Virus record (IMG/VR): IMGVR_UViG_3300035670_000395
Coordinates: 1 to 45,212 of that record
Source: a virus
DNA length: 45,212 nt
Direction: 5' to 3' (one strand)
Below the pieces are notes generated by a model. It was given only the letters and a program-made list of their open reading frames with translations. It did no database searches and was not told the origin of the DNA. Made by a program: the position numbers and the translations under genes. Shown one piece after another: positions 3,183-45,212 of the stretch. Positions within the stretch are counted from its first letter, which is position 1. Each line of letters opens with the position of its first letter.

Positions 3183-3253
3183 GGTTCCGTCAGGGTGAGT
3201 ATCGGGCTTTCAATCCCGAAATACAGTGGGTTCGACTCCCACCGGAACCGCCA
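3183..3253 (+). tRNA. tRNA-like element with 8-base anticodon loop and shrunken D region
   Basis: A seven-base-pair acceptor stem forms between GGTTCCG (3183-3189) and CGGAACC (3243-3249), followed by G and an encoded CCA. A perfect T arm, GTGGG-TTCGACT-CCCAC, occupies 3226-3242. The anticodon stem TCGGG/CCCGA (3202-3206 with 3215-3219) encloses eight bases, CTTTCAAT, where seven are normal. Read from the 5' side the anticodon is UUC (Glu); shifted by one it is UCA, which would read UGA. Only 12 bases lie between the acceptor and anticodon stems and no D stem is evident. It may be an unusual functional tRNA, a tRNA mimic or a decaying tRNA-Glu. Confidence 0.5.
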
Positions 3254-40868: not shown

Positions 40869-40885
40869 GGGGGGCCACTTCGGAT
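40869..40885. repeat. 17-bp direct repeat, copy 1
   Basis: The bases GGGGGGCCACTTCGGAT occur here and again at 41062-41078, 193 bases apart in the same orientation, flanking the operator-like dyads. The identity and placement are seen directly; a role as regulator or packaging site is unknown. Confidence 0.7.
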
Positions 40886-40910
40886 CGCGATTTTGTTCAG
40901 AAAAACGGTC

Positions 40911-40957
40911 TGTCCACGAAACGTGGACATGTCAGAAAAATGGACAATTTTTCTGAC
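40911..40957. promoter_or_regulatory. Two adjacent perfect inverted repeats upstream of terS
   Basis: TGTCCACG-AAA-CGTGGACA (40911-40929) is followed directly by GTCAGAAAAAT-GGACA-ATTTTTCTGAC (40931-40957). Neither has a T-run, so they are not terminators. They lie between the terS start and the divergent + strand arm and look like binding sites of dimeric proteins. Confidence 0.55.
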
Positions 40958-40965
40958 GCGGGGGT

Positions 40966-41003
40966 GTACCGAAATTGGGTACGAACGTACCTAAAACGGG
41001 TAC
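40966..41003. promoter_or_regulatory. Tandem operator-like dyads with 21-bp period
   Basis: GTACC-N7-GGTAC occurs at 40966-40982 and again at 40987-41003. The two start points are 21 bases apart, two helical turns, so bound dimers would sit on the same face of the DNA. The sequence between them (GGTAC-GAAC-GTACC) is itself a dyad. The binding protein is unknown; the winged-helix-like and zinc finger proteins of the left arm are candidates only by proximity in function. Confidence 0.55.
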
Positions 41004-41061
41004 GGCCTCGAAAACCCATGCATGTCCGTCTGACATACCCCTCCCCCTAACCAGCGGTGAA

Positions 41062-41078
41062 GGGGGGCCACTTCGGAT
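41062..41078. repeat. 17-bp direct repeat, copy 2
   Basis: Second copy of the repeat at 40869-40885, identical over 17 bases. Confidence 0.7.
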
Positions 41079-41081
41079 TCG

Positions 41082-41135
41082 GTTTGTCGTAACGGCAAAC
41101 ACTCCTTCGCGCGCGCAGAGTCACACGATCTCTGC
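41082..41135. promoter_or_regulatory. Further dyads in the divergent control region
   Basis: GTTTGTCG-TAA-CGGCAAAC (41082-41100, one mismatch) and GCAGAG-N9-CTCTGC (41115-41135, perfect). With the other dyads they make 40911-41266 an almost continuous set of inverted repeats. No gene longer than a few codons with a ribosome binding site is seen here. Confidence 0.4.
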
Positions 41136-41199
41136 CTCACTGCGTCGCGAAATTCCTTGTCCCCCCTACCGGTGGTGTACCCCGTCGCGATGCCAGCAA

Positions 41200-41266
41200 G
41201 GTGCGCCGTTGGCGCACCGCGAATCGCCGGGGGTGCGTTGAGGGCTGGGCTGTCCAGCCCCCGCAC
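41200..41266 (+). ncRNA. Two-hairpin leader element, copy A
   Basis: Hairpin 1 is GGTGCGCC-GTT-GGCGCACC (41200-41218). GCGAATCGC follows at 41219-41227. Hairpin 2 has an outer stem GTGCG/CGCAC (41233-41237 with 41262-41266) and an inner stem GGGCTGG/CCAGCCC. An AGGAG ribosome binding site and the ATG of the 106-residue gene follow within 20 bases. The constant core GCCGTTGGC and GCGAATCGC recur in copies B and C with different but still pairing flanks. Confidence 0.6.
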
Positions 41267-41282
41267 ACTAGGAGTCGCCACC

Positions 41283-41603
41283 ATGGCCGACCGTATCACG
41301 AAGAAGCAACTCGAAGAACAAGTCGCAGCTCTGCAAGCCGAGCTTGCGACCCTCAAGGCGGCTGCGGCCCCTGCGCCCAGCACCCCCGAGACGAACGACG
41401 AGTTCGTCCCCACCGCCGAAGCTCCGTTCCGGCGCAACTACTTCTTCCACCTCGTTGGCTGCGCCGCTCGCGGCGAGCACACCGAGATCGGCCGTGCCAT
41501 GGCTGAAGTTCGAACCAAGTTCGACAACGCTGCCGCGGTGCGGCTGCACTCGAAGATCTACGCGTTCGCCAAGAAAGGCAGCGCGCAGAAACCGCAGTCG
41601 TAA
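41283..41603 (+). CDS. Hypothetical early-arm protein (106 aa)
   Basis: ATG 41283 follows AGGAG; a longer in-frame GTG start would run through the hairpin element and is rejected. Residues 1-35 form a coiled coil (ITKKQLEEQVAALQAELATL), followed by an Ala/Pro linker and a compact part (FRRNYFFHLVGCAARGEHTE, then IGRAMAEVRTKFDNAAAVRL). It is the first gene of the + strand arm, directly downstream of a regulatory-looking region. No family is recognised. Confidence 0.65.
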   Translation: MADRITKKQLEEQVAALQAELATLKAAAAPAPSTPETNDEFVPTAEAPFRRNYFFHLVGCAARGEHTEIGRAMAEVRTKFDNAAAVRLHSKIYAFAKKGSAQKPQS

Positions 41604-41612
41604 CACCAACCC

Positions 41613-41633
41613 GGGGGGCCAAGCCCCCCATTT
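41613..41633 (+). terminator. GC hairpin, weak terminator
   Basis: GGGGGGC-CAA-GCCCCCC followed by ATTTCC. The U-tract is short, so termination is likely partial; it also shields the space between two genes. Confidence 0.5.
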
Positions 41634-41658
41634 CCATCCCACTCCGAAAGGACGCTTC

Positions 41659-42000
41659 ATGAAAACCCAACACGCCGTCTCCCTCGCCCTGTCCATCGCA
41701 TCGGCGATTATTAACATCGCGCTCTCGATCATGATGCTGATCGCGGCCGTCGAAGTCTTCGGCTGGATGCTCACCGTCGGCCTCTGGCTCGTGAGCGCCG
41801 TGCTCGCCCTCGCTGCCGCTTGGCTCGCGTACGACGAGCGCGCGGGCGAACGGATCACCGTTCGCATCAAAGGCTCCGTCGAGGCGTTCAACGCGTTCCG
41901 CAAGAACATTGCGGGCAAATTCAAACGCGAACCCAAAATCATCGCCACCATGAGCGACGGCACCGTCGTCCGCGAAGGCGACTTCGTTCCCCAGATCTAA
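41659..42000 (+). CDS. Two-TM membrane protein (113 aa)
   Basis: ATG 41659 follows AAAGGA. Two hydrophobic segments, SIASAIINIALSIMMLIAAV and TVGLWLVSAVLALAAAWLAY (about residues 11-33 and 38-58), form a membrane hairpin; the last 55 residues are basic and cytoplasm-like (ITVRIKGSVEAFNAFRKNIA), ending in a small SH3-like strand motif (MSDGTVVREGDFVPQI). The role is unknown. Several small membrane proteins occur side by side in this arm. Confidence 0.6.
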   Translation: MKTQHAVSLALSIASAIINIALSIMMLIAAVEVFGWMLTVGLWLVSAVLALAAAWLAYDERAGERITVRIKGSVEAFNAFRKNIAGKFKREPKIIATMSDGTVVREGDFVPQI

Positions 42001-42015
42001 CCCTCGCAGTTCTAG

Positions 42016-42042
42016 GCAGGCCCGGTATATCGGGCCTGCTTT
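42016..42042 (+). terminator. Hairpin terminator
   Basis: GCAGGCCCG-GTATAT-CGGGCCTGC with TTTC after it. It lies 15 bases after the preceding stop. The U-tract is short. Confidence 0.55.
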
Positions 42043-42093
42043 CACTGCGGAGGCCCGGATCACACGGGACAACTCACACTAGGAGCAAACCGC

Positions 42094-42393
42094 ATGATCA
42101 TTGAATCAGGCGTCATCATCTTCTTGGGCTTCTGCTTCCTCTTCTGGAAGCTGCCCCGCAGCACCATCCTGTATGCGCTTGGCTGGCCACTCGTCCTTGA
42201 CGTGGCCGCGAGCGTTATCGCCTACATCCTGCATTGGGGCACATTCAGCGGAATCATGGCCGCTGCCGTTGCAGGCTTCATGGTCTCCGCCATGACCAGC
42301 GCCGCACGCTGGTCGGTGGGGTACATCGACAAAGGCAAGTACTACCCCGGGCACATCGCCGACTGGCGGCAAGCCCTAGTGAGGATCAAATGA
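42094..42393 (+). CDS. Multi-TM membrane protein (99 aa)
   Basis: ATG 42094 follows an AGGAG site within CACACTAGGAG, which is identical to the leader of the first gene of the arm. Three hydrophobic helices are visible: IESGVIIFLGFCFLFWKLP, LYALGWPLVLDVAASVIAYI and GIMAAAVAGFMVSAMTSAA. The C-terminal 30 residues are soluble (YIDKGKYYPGHIADWRQALV). No signature of a holin or transporter is evident. Its end overlaps the next gene. Confidence 0.6.
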   Translation: MIIESGVIIFLGFCFLFWKLPRSTILYALGWPLVLDVAASVIAYILHWGTFSGIMAAAVAGFMVSAMTSAARWSVGYIDKGKYYPGHIADWRQALVRIK

Positions 42394-42671
42394 TGAGCAG
42401 CCTAGCCACCACTCGCGAAATCGCGATCAGCATGATTCGCCTTGTGCTGGATCGGCAACCCCCGTACACGCCGAGCCAAGACATGCACGACCTCGCCCGT
42501 GAAGGCAAGATCGTCCTCGACCTCGGCAAAGAAACGCTCGACCCATTGGTCGACGCCATGTACGACTACCGCGCCTTCAGTTGGCGCATCAGCCGCGTCG
42601 TGCAATACGGCCCGGCCCACAACCCGAATGCGCGCGACATTCGTCGCAAACTCGCATCCCTCAACCGCTAG
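42390..42671 (+). CDS. Hypothetical helical protein (93 aa)
   Basis: ATG 42390 overlaps the preceding stop (ATGA) after GAGG; an immediately following ATG could also serve. The protein contains SQDMHDLAREGKIVLDLGKE and LVDAMYDYRAFSWRISRVVQ, with a basic C-terminus (ARDIRRKLASLNR). It is likely a small globular protein. No function is recognised. The final base of its stop is the first base of hairpin element B. Confidence 0.55.
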   Translation: MMSSLATTREIAISMIRLVLDRQPPYTPSQDMHDLAREGKIVLDLGKETLDPLVDAMYDYRAFSWRISRVVQYGPAHNPNARDIRRKLASLNR

Positions 42672-42731
42672 CCTGCCGTTGGCAGGCAGCGAATCGCCGT
42701 GAGTTGGGTGGGCTCGCCCGCCCGCTCACGG
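42671..42731 (+). ncRNA. Two-hairpin leader element, copy B
   Basis: Hairpin 1 is GCCTGCC-GTT-GGCAGGC (42671-42687), then GCGAATCGC (42689-42697). Hairpin 2 has an outer stem CCGTGAG/CTCACGG and an inner GGGTGGGC/GCCCGCCC stem with one G-U pair. It is followed by GCCAACCACAGGGAGG (42738-42753), also found before the gene at 1775, and the ATG at 42762. Confidence 0.6.
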
Positions 42732-42761
42732 TTTAAGGCCAACCACAGGGAGGCATGGGAC

Positions 42762-43208
42762 ATGAACCCATTCGCCACAGTCATCGTCATCGAAGCCGTG
42801 GAACACGGGACGCTGGCACTACTCGCATGGCAATGCGAAAGGACTCGCATGAAAACCAAAGACAAGGACGTACCCAGCTTGTACGAGCTAGCAGCAGACG
42901 CCATCACCACCATGAACCCCACCGACATGCGGCTGACACGGATACTCCGCGTCCTTCAAGGCCGCATCATCCAGAAGGAGAAGCTGAATGCCCGTAGCCA
43001 ATACACAACGCAACAAAGCACGGCGGATAGCAGCGCAAGCCGCATTCCAGCAACGCAAGAAACAGAAGCGCGTCTGGTCAGCCCGCAAGCTGACGTCAAC
43101 ACGTCGCCGTCGGCGCGCGGACGTGCTGCCAAAGGCGTTGACCGACCGGCGCGCAGCCGAAAGCGTCCGCAACGTGATCGGAGTCGCGATCTACAAAATC
43201 CTGCCTGA
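42762..43208 (+). CDS. Hypothetical protein overlapping the next gene in another frame
   Basis: ATG 42762 follows GGGAGG by eight bases; an internal ATG at 42849 (MKTKDKDVPSLYELAADAIT) has its own AAAGGA site. The first part is hydrophobic (FATVIVIEAVEHGTLALLAW), then a helical region ending in RILRVLQGRIIQKEKLN. From 42988 on the frame runs inside the next gene and its product (RSQYTTQQSTADSSASR and so on) looks like an out-of-frame by-product. Either the protein truly extends there or the gene is damaged at its 3' end. Function unknown. Confidence 0.45.
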   Translation: MNPFATVIVIEAVEHGTLALLAWQCERTRMKTKDKDVPSLYELAADAITTMNPTDMRLTRILRVLQGRIIQKEKLNARSQYTTQQSTADSSASRIPATQETEARLVSPQADVNTSPSARGRAAKGVDRPARSRKRPQRDRSRDLQNPA

Positions 43209-43401
43209 CTACGAAGAGCCGGACGACTTGCACGACAACTATCGCGAATTCGAACGCGATGTGCTGACGCCCAAGCTCGAAGCCAAAGGCTTCGAGATCG
43301 TGCGCTGGCAAGACGGCGAACGCGACAGTTTCGGCCCGCTCTCGCGCTATGCCACGGCGTATGCGCCCAGCGGCATCCGCTGCGACATCGTGTATGGCTA
43401 A
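42988..43401 (+). CDS. Basic hypothetical protein (137 aa)
   Basis: ATG 42988 is preceded by AAGGAG at ideal spacing. The N-terminal 45 residues are extremely basic (QRNKARRIAAQAAFQQRKKQ, then RKLTSTRRRRR), followed by a folded part: ESVRNVIGVAIYKILPDYEE, RDVLTPKLEAKGFEIVRWQD, RYATAYAPSGIRCDIVYG. The arrangement suggests a nucleic-acid-binding tail on a small domain, without a known family. It overlaps the next start by eight bases. Confidence 0.65.
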   Translation: MPVANTQRNKARRIAAQAAFQQRKKQKRVWSARKLTSTRRRRRADVLPKALTDRRAAESVRNVIGVAIYKILPDYEEPDDLHDNYREFERDVLTPKLEAKGFEIVRWQDGERDSFGPLSRYATAYAPSGIRCDIVYG

Positions 43402-43627
43402 CAACCATATCAAGCTATTCTTCCACTGCGCCCAATGCATGGAAGACAAGCCAGCCAACATAAGCCCGCGCGATTGGGCGCAGATCGAAGCGGGCTGGAC
43501 TGACCACGGGCTGCAAGTCTGGTGCAAACGGCACGAGACCAACATCCTGCACATCGACTTCGAAGGCCAGCAACATCCGGCCAACACCAACAGAGGCAGC
43601 GGCGACCTGCCGCGCATCGTCAACTAA
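43394..43627 (+). CDS. Conserved small phage protein with cysteine motifs (77 aa)
   Basis: ATG 43394 overlaps the preceding stop region. C-A-Q-C near residue 15, then PANISPRDWAQIEAGWTDHG and LQVWCKRHETNILHIDFEGQ, make a pattern I know from many phage genomes; the cysteines and histidines may bind zinc. Function is not established. The gene ends three bases before a strong terminator. Confidence 0.65.
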   Translation: MANNHIKLFFHCAQCMEDKPANISPRDWAQIEAGWTDHGLQVWCKRHETNILHIDFEGQQHPANTNRGSGDLPRIVN

Positions 43628-43630
43628 ACC

Positions 43631-43655
43631 AAGGGGGCCACGTGCCCCCTTTTTC
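43631..43655 (+). terminator. Rho-independent terminator
   Basis: GGGGGC-CACGT-GCCCCC followed by TTTTTC, with AA at the base pairing into the U-tract. This is the best-formed terminator of the + strand arm. Confidence 0.85.
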
Positions 43656-43672
43656 ATGTGAGAGCCACCGCC

Positions 43673-43978
43673 ATGTCCACACTACTACTGCAATTTCACG
43701 CCGACCGCACGCACGACATCGAACAAGTCAAGGTCATCGCCGCGCTGCAAGCCATGGCCCAGATGTACCTCGAAACAGTGCAGTACCTGCCAAGCAAATC
43801 GCCCGAAATCTCGCGGTCATACGACATCGTGCTCGACAACATCGCTCGCGATATGCGTCGCTTGATTCGCAATGCAATGGGTAACAGCACCGATAGTCAA
43901 ATCATCCACCAGATCGATGGCTACGAGTTGTGCCAACTAATCTATCTGCTGTCAGGAAGAAACGCGGAGTTCGAATGA
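43673..43978 (+). CDS. Hypothetical helical protein (101 aa)
   Basis: ATG 43673 lies 18 bases after the terminator U-tract with a weak GAGAG site. The protein is helical: HDIEQVKVIAALQAMAQMYL, SRSYDIVLDNIARDMRRLIR and a last helix GYELCQLIYLLSGRN. No known domain is visible. Its stop overlaps the next start (ATGA). Confidence 0.55.
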   Translation: MSTLLLQFHADRTHDIEQVKVIAALQAMAQMYLETVQYLPSKSPEISRSYDIVLDNIARDMRRLIRNAMGNSTDSQIIHQIDGYELCQLIYLLSGRNAEFE

Positions 43979-44148
43979 TCAACTACCTCATTCTCATTCT
44001 TCTCTTCATCAGGAGAAGCTACGCCATGTGGGCAATGCAATACGTGCCCATGATGATCAATGGCCAATTCAATTCCGACTGGGAACGACTCCATGAATGG
44101 GCCAACTGCGAACGCTGCAAGCGTTACCTTGAACATGGAGAGTATTGA
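43975..44148 (+). CDS. Small membrane protein with C-x-x-C (57 aa)
   Basis: ATG 43975 after GGAG overlaps the preceding stop. An N-terminal hydrophobic segment (INYLILILLFIRRSYAMWAM) anchors a short soluble part ending in ANCERCKRYLEHGEY, in which C-E-R-C could bind metal or form a disulfide. A second ATG after AGGAG (44026) could give a soluble form. Function unknown. Confidence 0.5.
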   Translation: MINYLILILLFIRRSYAMWAMQYVPMMINGQFNSDWERLHEWANCERCKRYLEHGEY

Positions 44149-44153
44149 CCCAT

Positions 44154-44209
44154 GCCGCCGTTGGCGGCTTGCGAATCGCGGCGGGTGAGGTAGGCACGGT
44201 GCCTATCTC
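44154..44209 (+). ncRNA. Two-hairpin leader element, copy C
   Basis: Hairpin 1 is GCCGCC-GTT-GGCGGC (44154-44168), then GCGAATCGC (44171-44179). Hairpin 2 is GAGGTAGGC-ACGGT-GCCTATCTC (44187-44209) with one G-U pair. AAGGGG and the ATG at 44227 follow. The pairing partners differ from copies A and B but the layout is the same. Confidence 0.6.
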
Positions 44210-44226
44210 TAGACAAGGGGAGCTAG

Positions 44227-44439
44227 ATGGCAATACGGATTCTTTCCGACGAAATGGGTTTCAACGACGATGGGGAACCTGAACCCATGGAACTCATTAC
44301 CCCTGAAGATCGATGTGCCTGCAAGGAGGAAATGACCCAGCGACTGCTGTTACTAGGACTGACACAACTCGAAATCAACCTGTTCTTCATCCACACGCAA
44401 ACCGTAAACCAAAAGGAAATCGACGATGACCACCCGTGA
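44227..44439 (+). CDS. Hypothetical acidic protein (70 aa)
   Basis: ATG 44227 follows AAGGGGAG. The protein is acidic with a C-A-C motif near residue 30 (TPEDRCACKEEMTQRLLLLG) and a helical centre (LTQLEINLFFIHTQTV). No family is recognised. The last 14 bases overlap the next gene. Confidence 0.55.
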   Translation: MAIRILSDEMGFNDDGEPEPMELITPEDRCACKEEMTQRLLLLGLTQLEINLFFIHTQTVNQKEIDDDHP

Positions 44440-45212
44440 ACCACGCACAATCCAAGTCCCTGCCGGAACGATCAGCGGCGACTACCCCGCGCCCACCACC
44501 ATGGCAGCGGCGGTGCAATCCGCTAGCAAAAACCAGCCGGAAAGCTTCAGCGAAGAGCCGGCTCCGACGATCCACGCCAACTTCTTCGACTTGCTGGACG
44601 AGCACATGCACACCGAGGAAGGCCAACTGCTGGCCACCAAGATGTGCAACCAGCTCACCGGCCAGATGGTCTTCCAACTCGACTTGCATGTGAAGAACAA
44701 CATGCAGGAAATCCCGGGCACCGACCTCGGTAGCACCACCCGCACGCCCGTCAAGGGTAGCGTGCCCACGCTCGACCAGCGCAACGAACGCGATGAGAAG
44801 CACCGCGGCGAGGAACAGCACGACCACGCGACCGAAGACATGGGGTTCACCCCCGCGCTGAAGCCGCTCGAAATTGCCCTCGCCTGCGAGGAAGCCCGGA
44901 CATACCTGTACGAAGGGGTCGAAAGCCAGAACGCTCACCTGCCCCGCCGTCAGGACATCCTGTACCGCGGCATCCCCGACCTCGCGCTCAAGTTCGTCAG
45001 CGCTGAGTCGGCCCTGCGCAACCGCATCGAGAACAACAAGCTCCCGAGCGCGGCCAAGCAGACGCAGATCAAGGAAAACGCGAAGCAGTTCAATGCGAGC
45101 GAGGAAGAAGCGCTGGCCAACGAACTGCGCAAGCGGCAACGGTTCGCAGGCGAAGCCCTCAACCGCATGGCCGACGTGCTCTCCGAGATCGATGGCATGA
45201 CCATCGCCCCCA
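44426..45212 (+). CDS. Hypothetical protein, cut by the window edge (262+ aa)
   Basis: ATG 44426 follows AAGGA and overlaps the end of the preceding gene; the frame remains open to the last base. The visible part starts TTREPRTIQVPAGTISGDYP, has a helical NFFDLLDEHMHTEEGQLLAT, an acidic linker rich in His and Glu (RDEKHRGEEQHDHATED), then helices PALKPLEIALACEEARTYLY and SAESALRNRIENNKLPSAAK. The regular charged helices suggest a DNA-associated or scaffolding-like early protein, but nothing identifies it. Confidence 0.65.
   Translation, partial: MTTREPRTIQVPAGTISGDYPAPTTMAAAVQSASKNQPESFSEEPAPTIHANFFDLLDEHMHTEEGQLLATKMCNQLTGQMVFQLDLHVKNNMQEIPGTDLGSTTRTPVKGSVPTLDQRNERDEKHRGEEQHDHATEDMGFTPALKPLEIALACEEARTYLYEGVESQNAHLPRRQDILYRGIPDLALKFVSAESALRNRIENNKLPSAAKQTQIKENAKQFNASEEEALANELRKRQRFAGEALNRMADVLSEIDGMTIAP

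Follow-up and report, generated by a model that had tools for sequence, protein, structure and literature searches.

A covarying two-hairpin RNA element in early gene leaders of KPP25-like phages, a possible modifier of the transcribing polymerase

Organization of the early region

The window analyzed here is the whole 45,212-nt stretch of IMG/VR record IMGVR_UViG_3300035670_000395. The portal protein of this phage is of the P22 type, and by this protein its nearest cultured relatives are Pseudomonas phages KPP25 and phiR18 (Kochitakasuvirus). Structural genes fill a leftward left arm, and the rightward right arm opens with small early genes, followed by replication genes encoding a family A DNA polymerase, an SNF2-type helicase, AAA ATPases, and a VapE-like protein. 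The genes scanned yielded no phage RNA polymerase, so transcription of the early arm probably falls to the host enzyme. Three copies of a two-hairpin element lie within the first 3 kb of the right arm (Table 1), all on the plus strand and in the order hairpin 1, linker, hairpin 2, SD, and ATG; copies 2 and 3 directly follow the stop codon of the preceding gene and precede the SD.

The 23-nt motif GCCGTTGGC-N5-GCGAATCGC has exactly three exact occurrences in the window (41205, 42675, and 44157), compared to 0.18 expected (maximum 1) in shuffled sequence. The near-identical genome G001 (72,102 bp) carries the same three copies, and a search allowing ≤3 mismatches identified no fourth in either the window or G001. 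The original prediction of three recurring copies at 41200, 42671, and 44154 with one layout, and no fourth in the window, is thus borne out by the sequence. It had also stated that no copy has a U-tract; sequence inspection and a terminator check agree, and an intrinsic terminator fits the element poorly because no U-tract follows the hairpins.

Table 1. Features of the early region, in window coordinates
Feature	Coordinates	Strand	Description and basis
Upstream motif GGCCACTTCGGATTCGG	41062..41080	+	Conserved within the group, in the divergent late/early region
Copy 1, hairpin 1	41200..41218	+	GGTGCGCC-GTT-GGCGCACC; leader of first rightward gene; fold; covariance model R1, 37.0 bits
Copy 1, constant linker GCGAATCGC	41219..41227	+	Exact in 3/3 copies
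Copy 1, hairpin 2	41233..41266 (about)	+	Fold
SD AGGAG and start ATG (41283)	41270..41285	+	106-aa first early gene; sequence
Copy 2, hairpin 1	42671..42687	+	GCCTGCC-GTT-GGCAGGC; sequence, fold, covariance model R1
Copy 2, constant linker GCGAATCGC	42689..42697	+	Exact in 3/3 copies
Copy 2, hairpin 2	42697..42731 (about)	+	With U.G wobble pairs; fold
Gene for 137-aa protein	42988..43401	+	Arginine-rich N-terminus (NTQRNKARRIAAQAAFQQRKKQKR); weak candidate for an RNA-binding partner
Terminator-like hairpin and U-tract	43631..43655	+	Strong, intrinsic type; inside co-directional early operon, between copies 2 and 3
Copy 3, hairpin 1	44154..44168	+	GCCGCC-GTT-GGCGGC; sequence, full-leader fold, covariance model R1
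Copy 3, constant linker GCGAATCGC	44171..44179	+	Exact in 3/3 copies
Copy 3, hairpin 2	44187..44209 (about)	+	GAGGTAGGCA-CGG-TGCCTATCTC; fold
70-aa gene behind copy 3	44227..44439	+	Two-hairpin leader also present at its orthologs in four other phages

The divergent region between the late and early arms has conserved features of its own. CCCCACTTCGGATTCGG is strongly conserved there (window 40869-40885 and 41062-41080; loci L140-L205 of related phages) and in many phages is followed by an AGGRRYCCCT-like palindrome; its exact 17-mer occurs in 69 IMG/VR stretches. This could be an early promoter/operator region or a packaging site. Short inverted repeats at 40905-40995 (GTCCACGAAACGTGGAC, GTCAGAAAAATGGACAATTTTTCTGAC, and GGGTACGAACGTACC) look like clustered operators. 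Further along, right-arm gene leaders repeatedly contain a CATGGGAC-like motif, in many cases preceded by GGCC, in the window (42755) and four related phages (L096, 12052, minus strand; L098, 5764; L100, 3627 and 6369; L101, 6872). An Rfam tRNA match at 3183-3250 (30.4 bits, just over threshold), close to where the leftward arm ends, was not called by ARAGORN and is perhaps a degenerate tRNA.

Small early proteins with arginine-rich stretches are encoded in the window (42988-43401), in L101 (4928-5170), in L021 (1503-1709, minus strand), and, less markedly, in L100 (4637-4939). These stretches resemble lambda-type N peptides, and NKARRIA is common to the window and L101, the rest of the proteins being little alike. 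Neither Pfam nor PHROG yielded an N protein match for them; the NKARRIA stretch is suggestive, but basic small proteins are common in phages, and the link to N is weak.

Structure of the three copies

Hairpin 1 consists of a constant apex on a variable base. Pairs 1 to 3 from the loop are identical in the three copies, and pairs 4 to 6 read C-G/T-A/C-G, G-C/C-G/C-G, and T-A/C-G/G-C, respectively, across copies 1, 2, and 3, all of them Watson-Crick. Pair 7 holds in two of three copies and is T-T in copy 3, so that the claim that outer pairs change with complementarity kept is correct for pairs 4 to 6, where both sides change, and fails at pair 7 of copy 3. The stem measures 8, 7, and 6 bp in copies 1, 2, and 3, and the distance from loop to linker is constant. 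Hairpin-2 stems had been described as unrelated, but their 5′ arms align as a repeat family (D1) with 69-74% identity over 42 nt; G-U pairs occur in hairpin 2 of copies 2 and 3 and of most relatives. The leaders fold better than shuffled sequence, with z-scores of -2.1, -6.0, and -2.2 (copies 1, 2, and 3). Folded alone, the copy 3 leader adopts a competing lowest-energy fold in which both motif halves pair together, while prediction on the whole leader, up to the start codon, recovers both hairpins as drawn.

Homologous leaders in related phages

Early regions of relatives were fetched using a conserved 99-aa protein (MIIESG...) as the anchor, and their leaders were scanned for the order hairpin-linker-hairpin-SD-ATG; matches were many on the strand of the gene and few on the opposite one, with almost none in a reversed control. 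The anchor itself, a membrane-like protein encoded at 42094-42393 of the window, is conserved across the group, including KPP25, and marks the early region well. The portal and early-gene relatives, all KPP25-like (Kochitakasuvirus), have early leaders composed of hairpin, fixed linker, hairpin, SD, and ATG. Some of these leaders belong to orthologous genes: the gene behind copy 3 has orthologs in L098, L100, L101, and L102, every one with the two-hairpin layout in its leader, and the L098 ortholog of the first gene, behind copy 1, has this layout too.

Nine copies in four phages (the window, L098, L100, and L101) were aligned across hairpin 1 and the linker. All 62 of 62 cells are paired, with none of the sliding controls above 56.5%, and five of seven pairs have changed on both sides; covariation is 0.571 versus 0.143 for shuffled and ≤0.139 for slid alignments. 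Searching with covariance model R1 re-found these nine copies and no other convincing one, and a scan of IMG/VR for the exact core gave, beyond this phage, coincidental matches alone, apparently inside coding sequence.

The same layout recurs with other loops and linkers. In a second family (L007/L107, L008/L104, L010/L108, L014/L111, L018, and L103), the loop is TTC, the linker is TGCCCTTTGT, and the second hairpin is often TGAGC-RATNTT-GCTCA; in a third, the loop is CAAG and the linker is CTGTGTGCGTTGT. Hairpin 1 is paired in 82 of 84 cells of the TTC set (covariation 0.931 versus 0.229 shuffled) and in 70 of 72 cells of the CAAG set (0.938 versus 0.193 shuffled), values that lean upward in pairing since both sets were collected by demanding good stems. 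Model R2 finds the TTC family at E values of 1e-6 to 1e-13, as well as weaker copies outside its training set in L106, L109 (two), L110, L116, and L117 (two); in loci oriented by an early gene, these extra copies are all on the early sense strand. In L098, a TTC loop occurs together with the window group's CGGATC linker, which joins that group to the TTC family. The two CAAG copies in L188 differ by compensatory changes in the stems of both hairpins, and a search of a genome collection gave a single match, a Janthinobacterium MAG with two CAAG-loop copies. L102 has three clear copies plus a fourth, divergent one with TTTCAGTCTYTTGTGTGTAGGTCAG; in KPP25, hairpins CGC-GGA-GCG and TGC-GGA-GCA precede the first two rightward genes; and L108 has tandem copies before one gene, the extra one about 160 nt upstream of that gene's start. 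Across the family, the conserved linker spans 9-20 nt. Most phages that carry multiple copies use one loop and one linker in all of them, and between phages both differ in concert.

The window copies owe their discovery to their core, so selection for good stems does not enter into them, nor does it affect the linker conservation or a test that took the upstream motif as its anchor. In the latter, at 43 distinct loci with this motif, the first 250 nt contained a hairpin of at least 7 bp in 20 of 43, compared to a shuffled mean of 2.85 (maximum 6). Windows further downstream still gave 14 and 7, indicating that hairpins occur frequently throughout these early arms. Covariance-model searching had been proposed as a check on the original prediction of selected RNA structure; the models match relatives with compensatory changes, which strongly supports that claim. 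None of the Rfam 15 covariance models matches the element. The family, as computed from its copies, layout, covariation, orthologous placement, and concerted change within genomes, is a real and so far unnamed phage control element.

Possible roles of the element

The reading tentatively preferred here, at somewhat short of an even chance, is that the element acts in cis within the nascent early transcript, as an RNA that modifies host RNA polymerase in an antitermination-like manner. The three sites are copies of one module in early transcript leaders, with hairpin 1 offering a fixed loop and upper stem on a freely covarying lower stem, followed at a fixed distance by the 9-nt linker and then by hairpin 2. 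The nascent RNA may be recognized through loop and linker by host RNA polymerase, the likely target given the genes scanned, or by Nus-type factors, possibly together with a phage RNA-binding protein; the modified elongating polymerase would then read through terminators of the roughly 31-kb early arm. The exact cores, compensatory changes, orthologous positions, and motif-anchored test count for such an RNA, and the tandem L108 copies before a single gene fit a transcript-level module. The intrinsic terminator at 43631 within the operon, with further terminator-like hairpins downstream along the right arm, is what processive antitermination would need, and terminators inside operons have served as an argument for antitermination in conAn operons (PMC8955417). 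However, those right-arm hairpins are as numerous in antisense as in sense orientation, three to four copies within 3 kb exceed the need of known antiterminators, and no sigma-70-like promoter was found. Also counted against antitermination are a window linker without a boxA match, a first hairpin that is itself terminator-like in L106 and at one KPP25 site, and the weak link to an arginine-rich protein. The wider proposal, that a large group of KPP25-like podoviruses uses this unnamed two-hairpin family as processive antiterminators, with loop and linker making up a recognition code that is specific to the lineage and shifts in concert across every copy in a genome, is possible but doubtful.

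Alternatively, the hairpins could be mRNA processing or stability elements, providing RNase cleavage sites or 5′-end protection for individual early mRNAs in the manner of T7 RNase III sites. Their intergenic or leader position, one per selected gene, upstream of the SD and, for copies 2 and 3, right behind a stop codon, suits such a per-gene role, as do several copies close together, but the stems of both hairpins (6-8 bp in hairpin 1, 10-15 bp in hairpin 2) are on the short side for RNase III, and a loop and linker fixed in both sequence and spacing exceed what a stability hairpin needs; this role seems fairly unlikely. Translational control, by a phage protein binding the hairpins or by linker-SD pairing that hides the ribosome site, would agree with an SD and ATG 55-95 nt downstream of all copies but one. 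In some TTC phages, the linker is complementary to the SD, and permuted pairings reach the own value in only 137 of 5000 cases. For the window family, in contrast, 1934 of 5000 permutations do as well, and the SD of the three window copies is at least as free as in shuffled leaders, leaving SD sequestration by the linker unsupported and a simple translation switch unlikely there. The distant extra copy in L108 also counts against translational control, which overall is considered unlikely.

The perfect palindrome of hairpin 1, with no G-U among its counted cells (the searches that yielded the relatives demanded perfect pairing), would also suit a DNA-level element, whether a protein-binding site, an N4-type virion RNA polymerase hairpin promoter, or a replication signal. 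Against this, hairpin 2 uses G-U pairs, the sense strand is the more stable in 14 of 20 copies (a modest excess), and the element always lies sense to its gene, between stop codon and SD, observations that together favor RNA over DNA. No common sequence that might serve as a per-copy promoter was seen by eye upstream of the copies, and no N4-type polymerase was found among the large virion proteins or replication genes; the two largest virion proteins gave no polymerase match in a sequence search, and an N4-type promoter was rejected. A DNA-level role is improbable. That the hairpins arose by chance or through recent, functionless duplication might be argued from the exact window sequence, which is present in this phage alone in IMG/VR, but orthologous placement and compensatory change in relatives make this very improbable.

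To our knowledge, few RNA elements act on the polymerase that transcribes them, namely put, EAR, conAn, nut, and rrn. The present phage-wide family comprises dozens of natural variants, with several copies per genome and cultured relatives in KPP25 and phiR18, and such variants would be ready material for dissecting RNA recognition and the drift of a recognition code. Even if its function should be processing or translation, this is a strongly covarying family of structured RNAs that has so far gone uncatalogued. Antitermination by put, the analogy drawn in the original prediction, acts through the beta′ zinc-binding domain.

Comparison with known systems

In the T7 early region, RNase III hairpins are repeated between the early genes and before the first. 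Repeated hairpins among early phage genes are found here as well, but with shorter stems and a fixed loop and linker sequence. The nut-like site of rrn leaders has the order boxB-boxA-boxC, i.e., hairpin, linear element, and further linear stretch (PMC6614801), an order also seen in the phage leaders. The linker of the TTC family, TGCCCTTTG, resembles boxA (consensus GYTCTTTAANA; PMC5725501) and fits six of eight boxA core positions, whereas no match to this consensus at ≤2 mismatches was found from 40900 to 45212 in the window, its linker included. Lambda nut (boxA then boxB, with N protein) likewise pairs a small hairpin with a phage-specific loop and a linear motif in early leaders, and an arginine-rich small protein is encoded nearby in some phages, a link to N that is one of resemblance. 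In the present element, however, the hairpin precedes the linear motif, and the lack of boxA rules out membership in nut or rrn.

HK022 put RNA (putL and putR) is about 70 nt long, forms two stem-loops, and is present in early leaders as two copies per phage (PMC9378689). The window element has the same size, two stem-loops, and early leader position, so that this part of the put analogy stands. In contrast, judged by its published description, put has stems that abut directly, with G35 at the fork (PMC9378689), and a sequence common to copies and phages, whereas the phage leaders have a conserved 9-20 nt linker between the hairpins and lineage-specific loops and linkers. The long conserved linker rules out membership in put, leaving the likeness an analogy. 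The element might accordingly be pictured as an antitermination or processivity element that would work like put or nut while belonging to neither.
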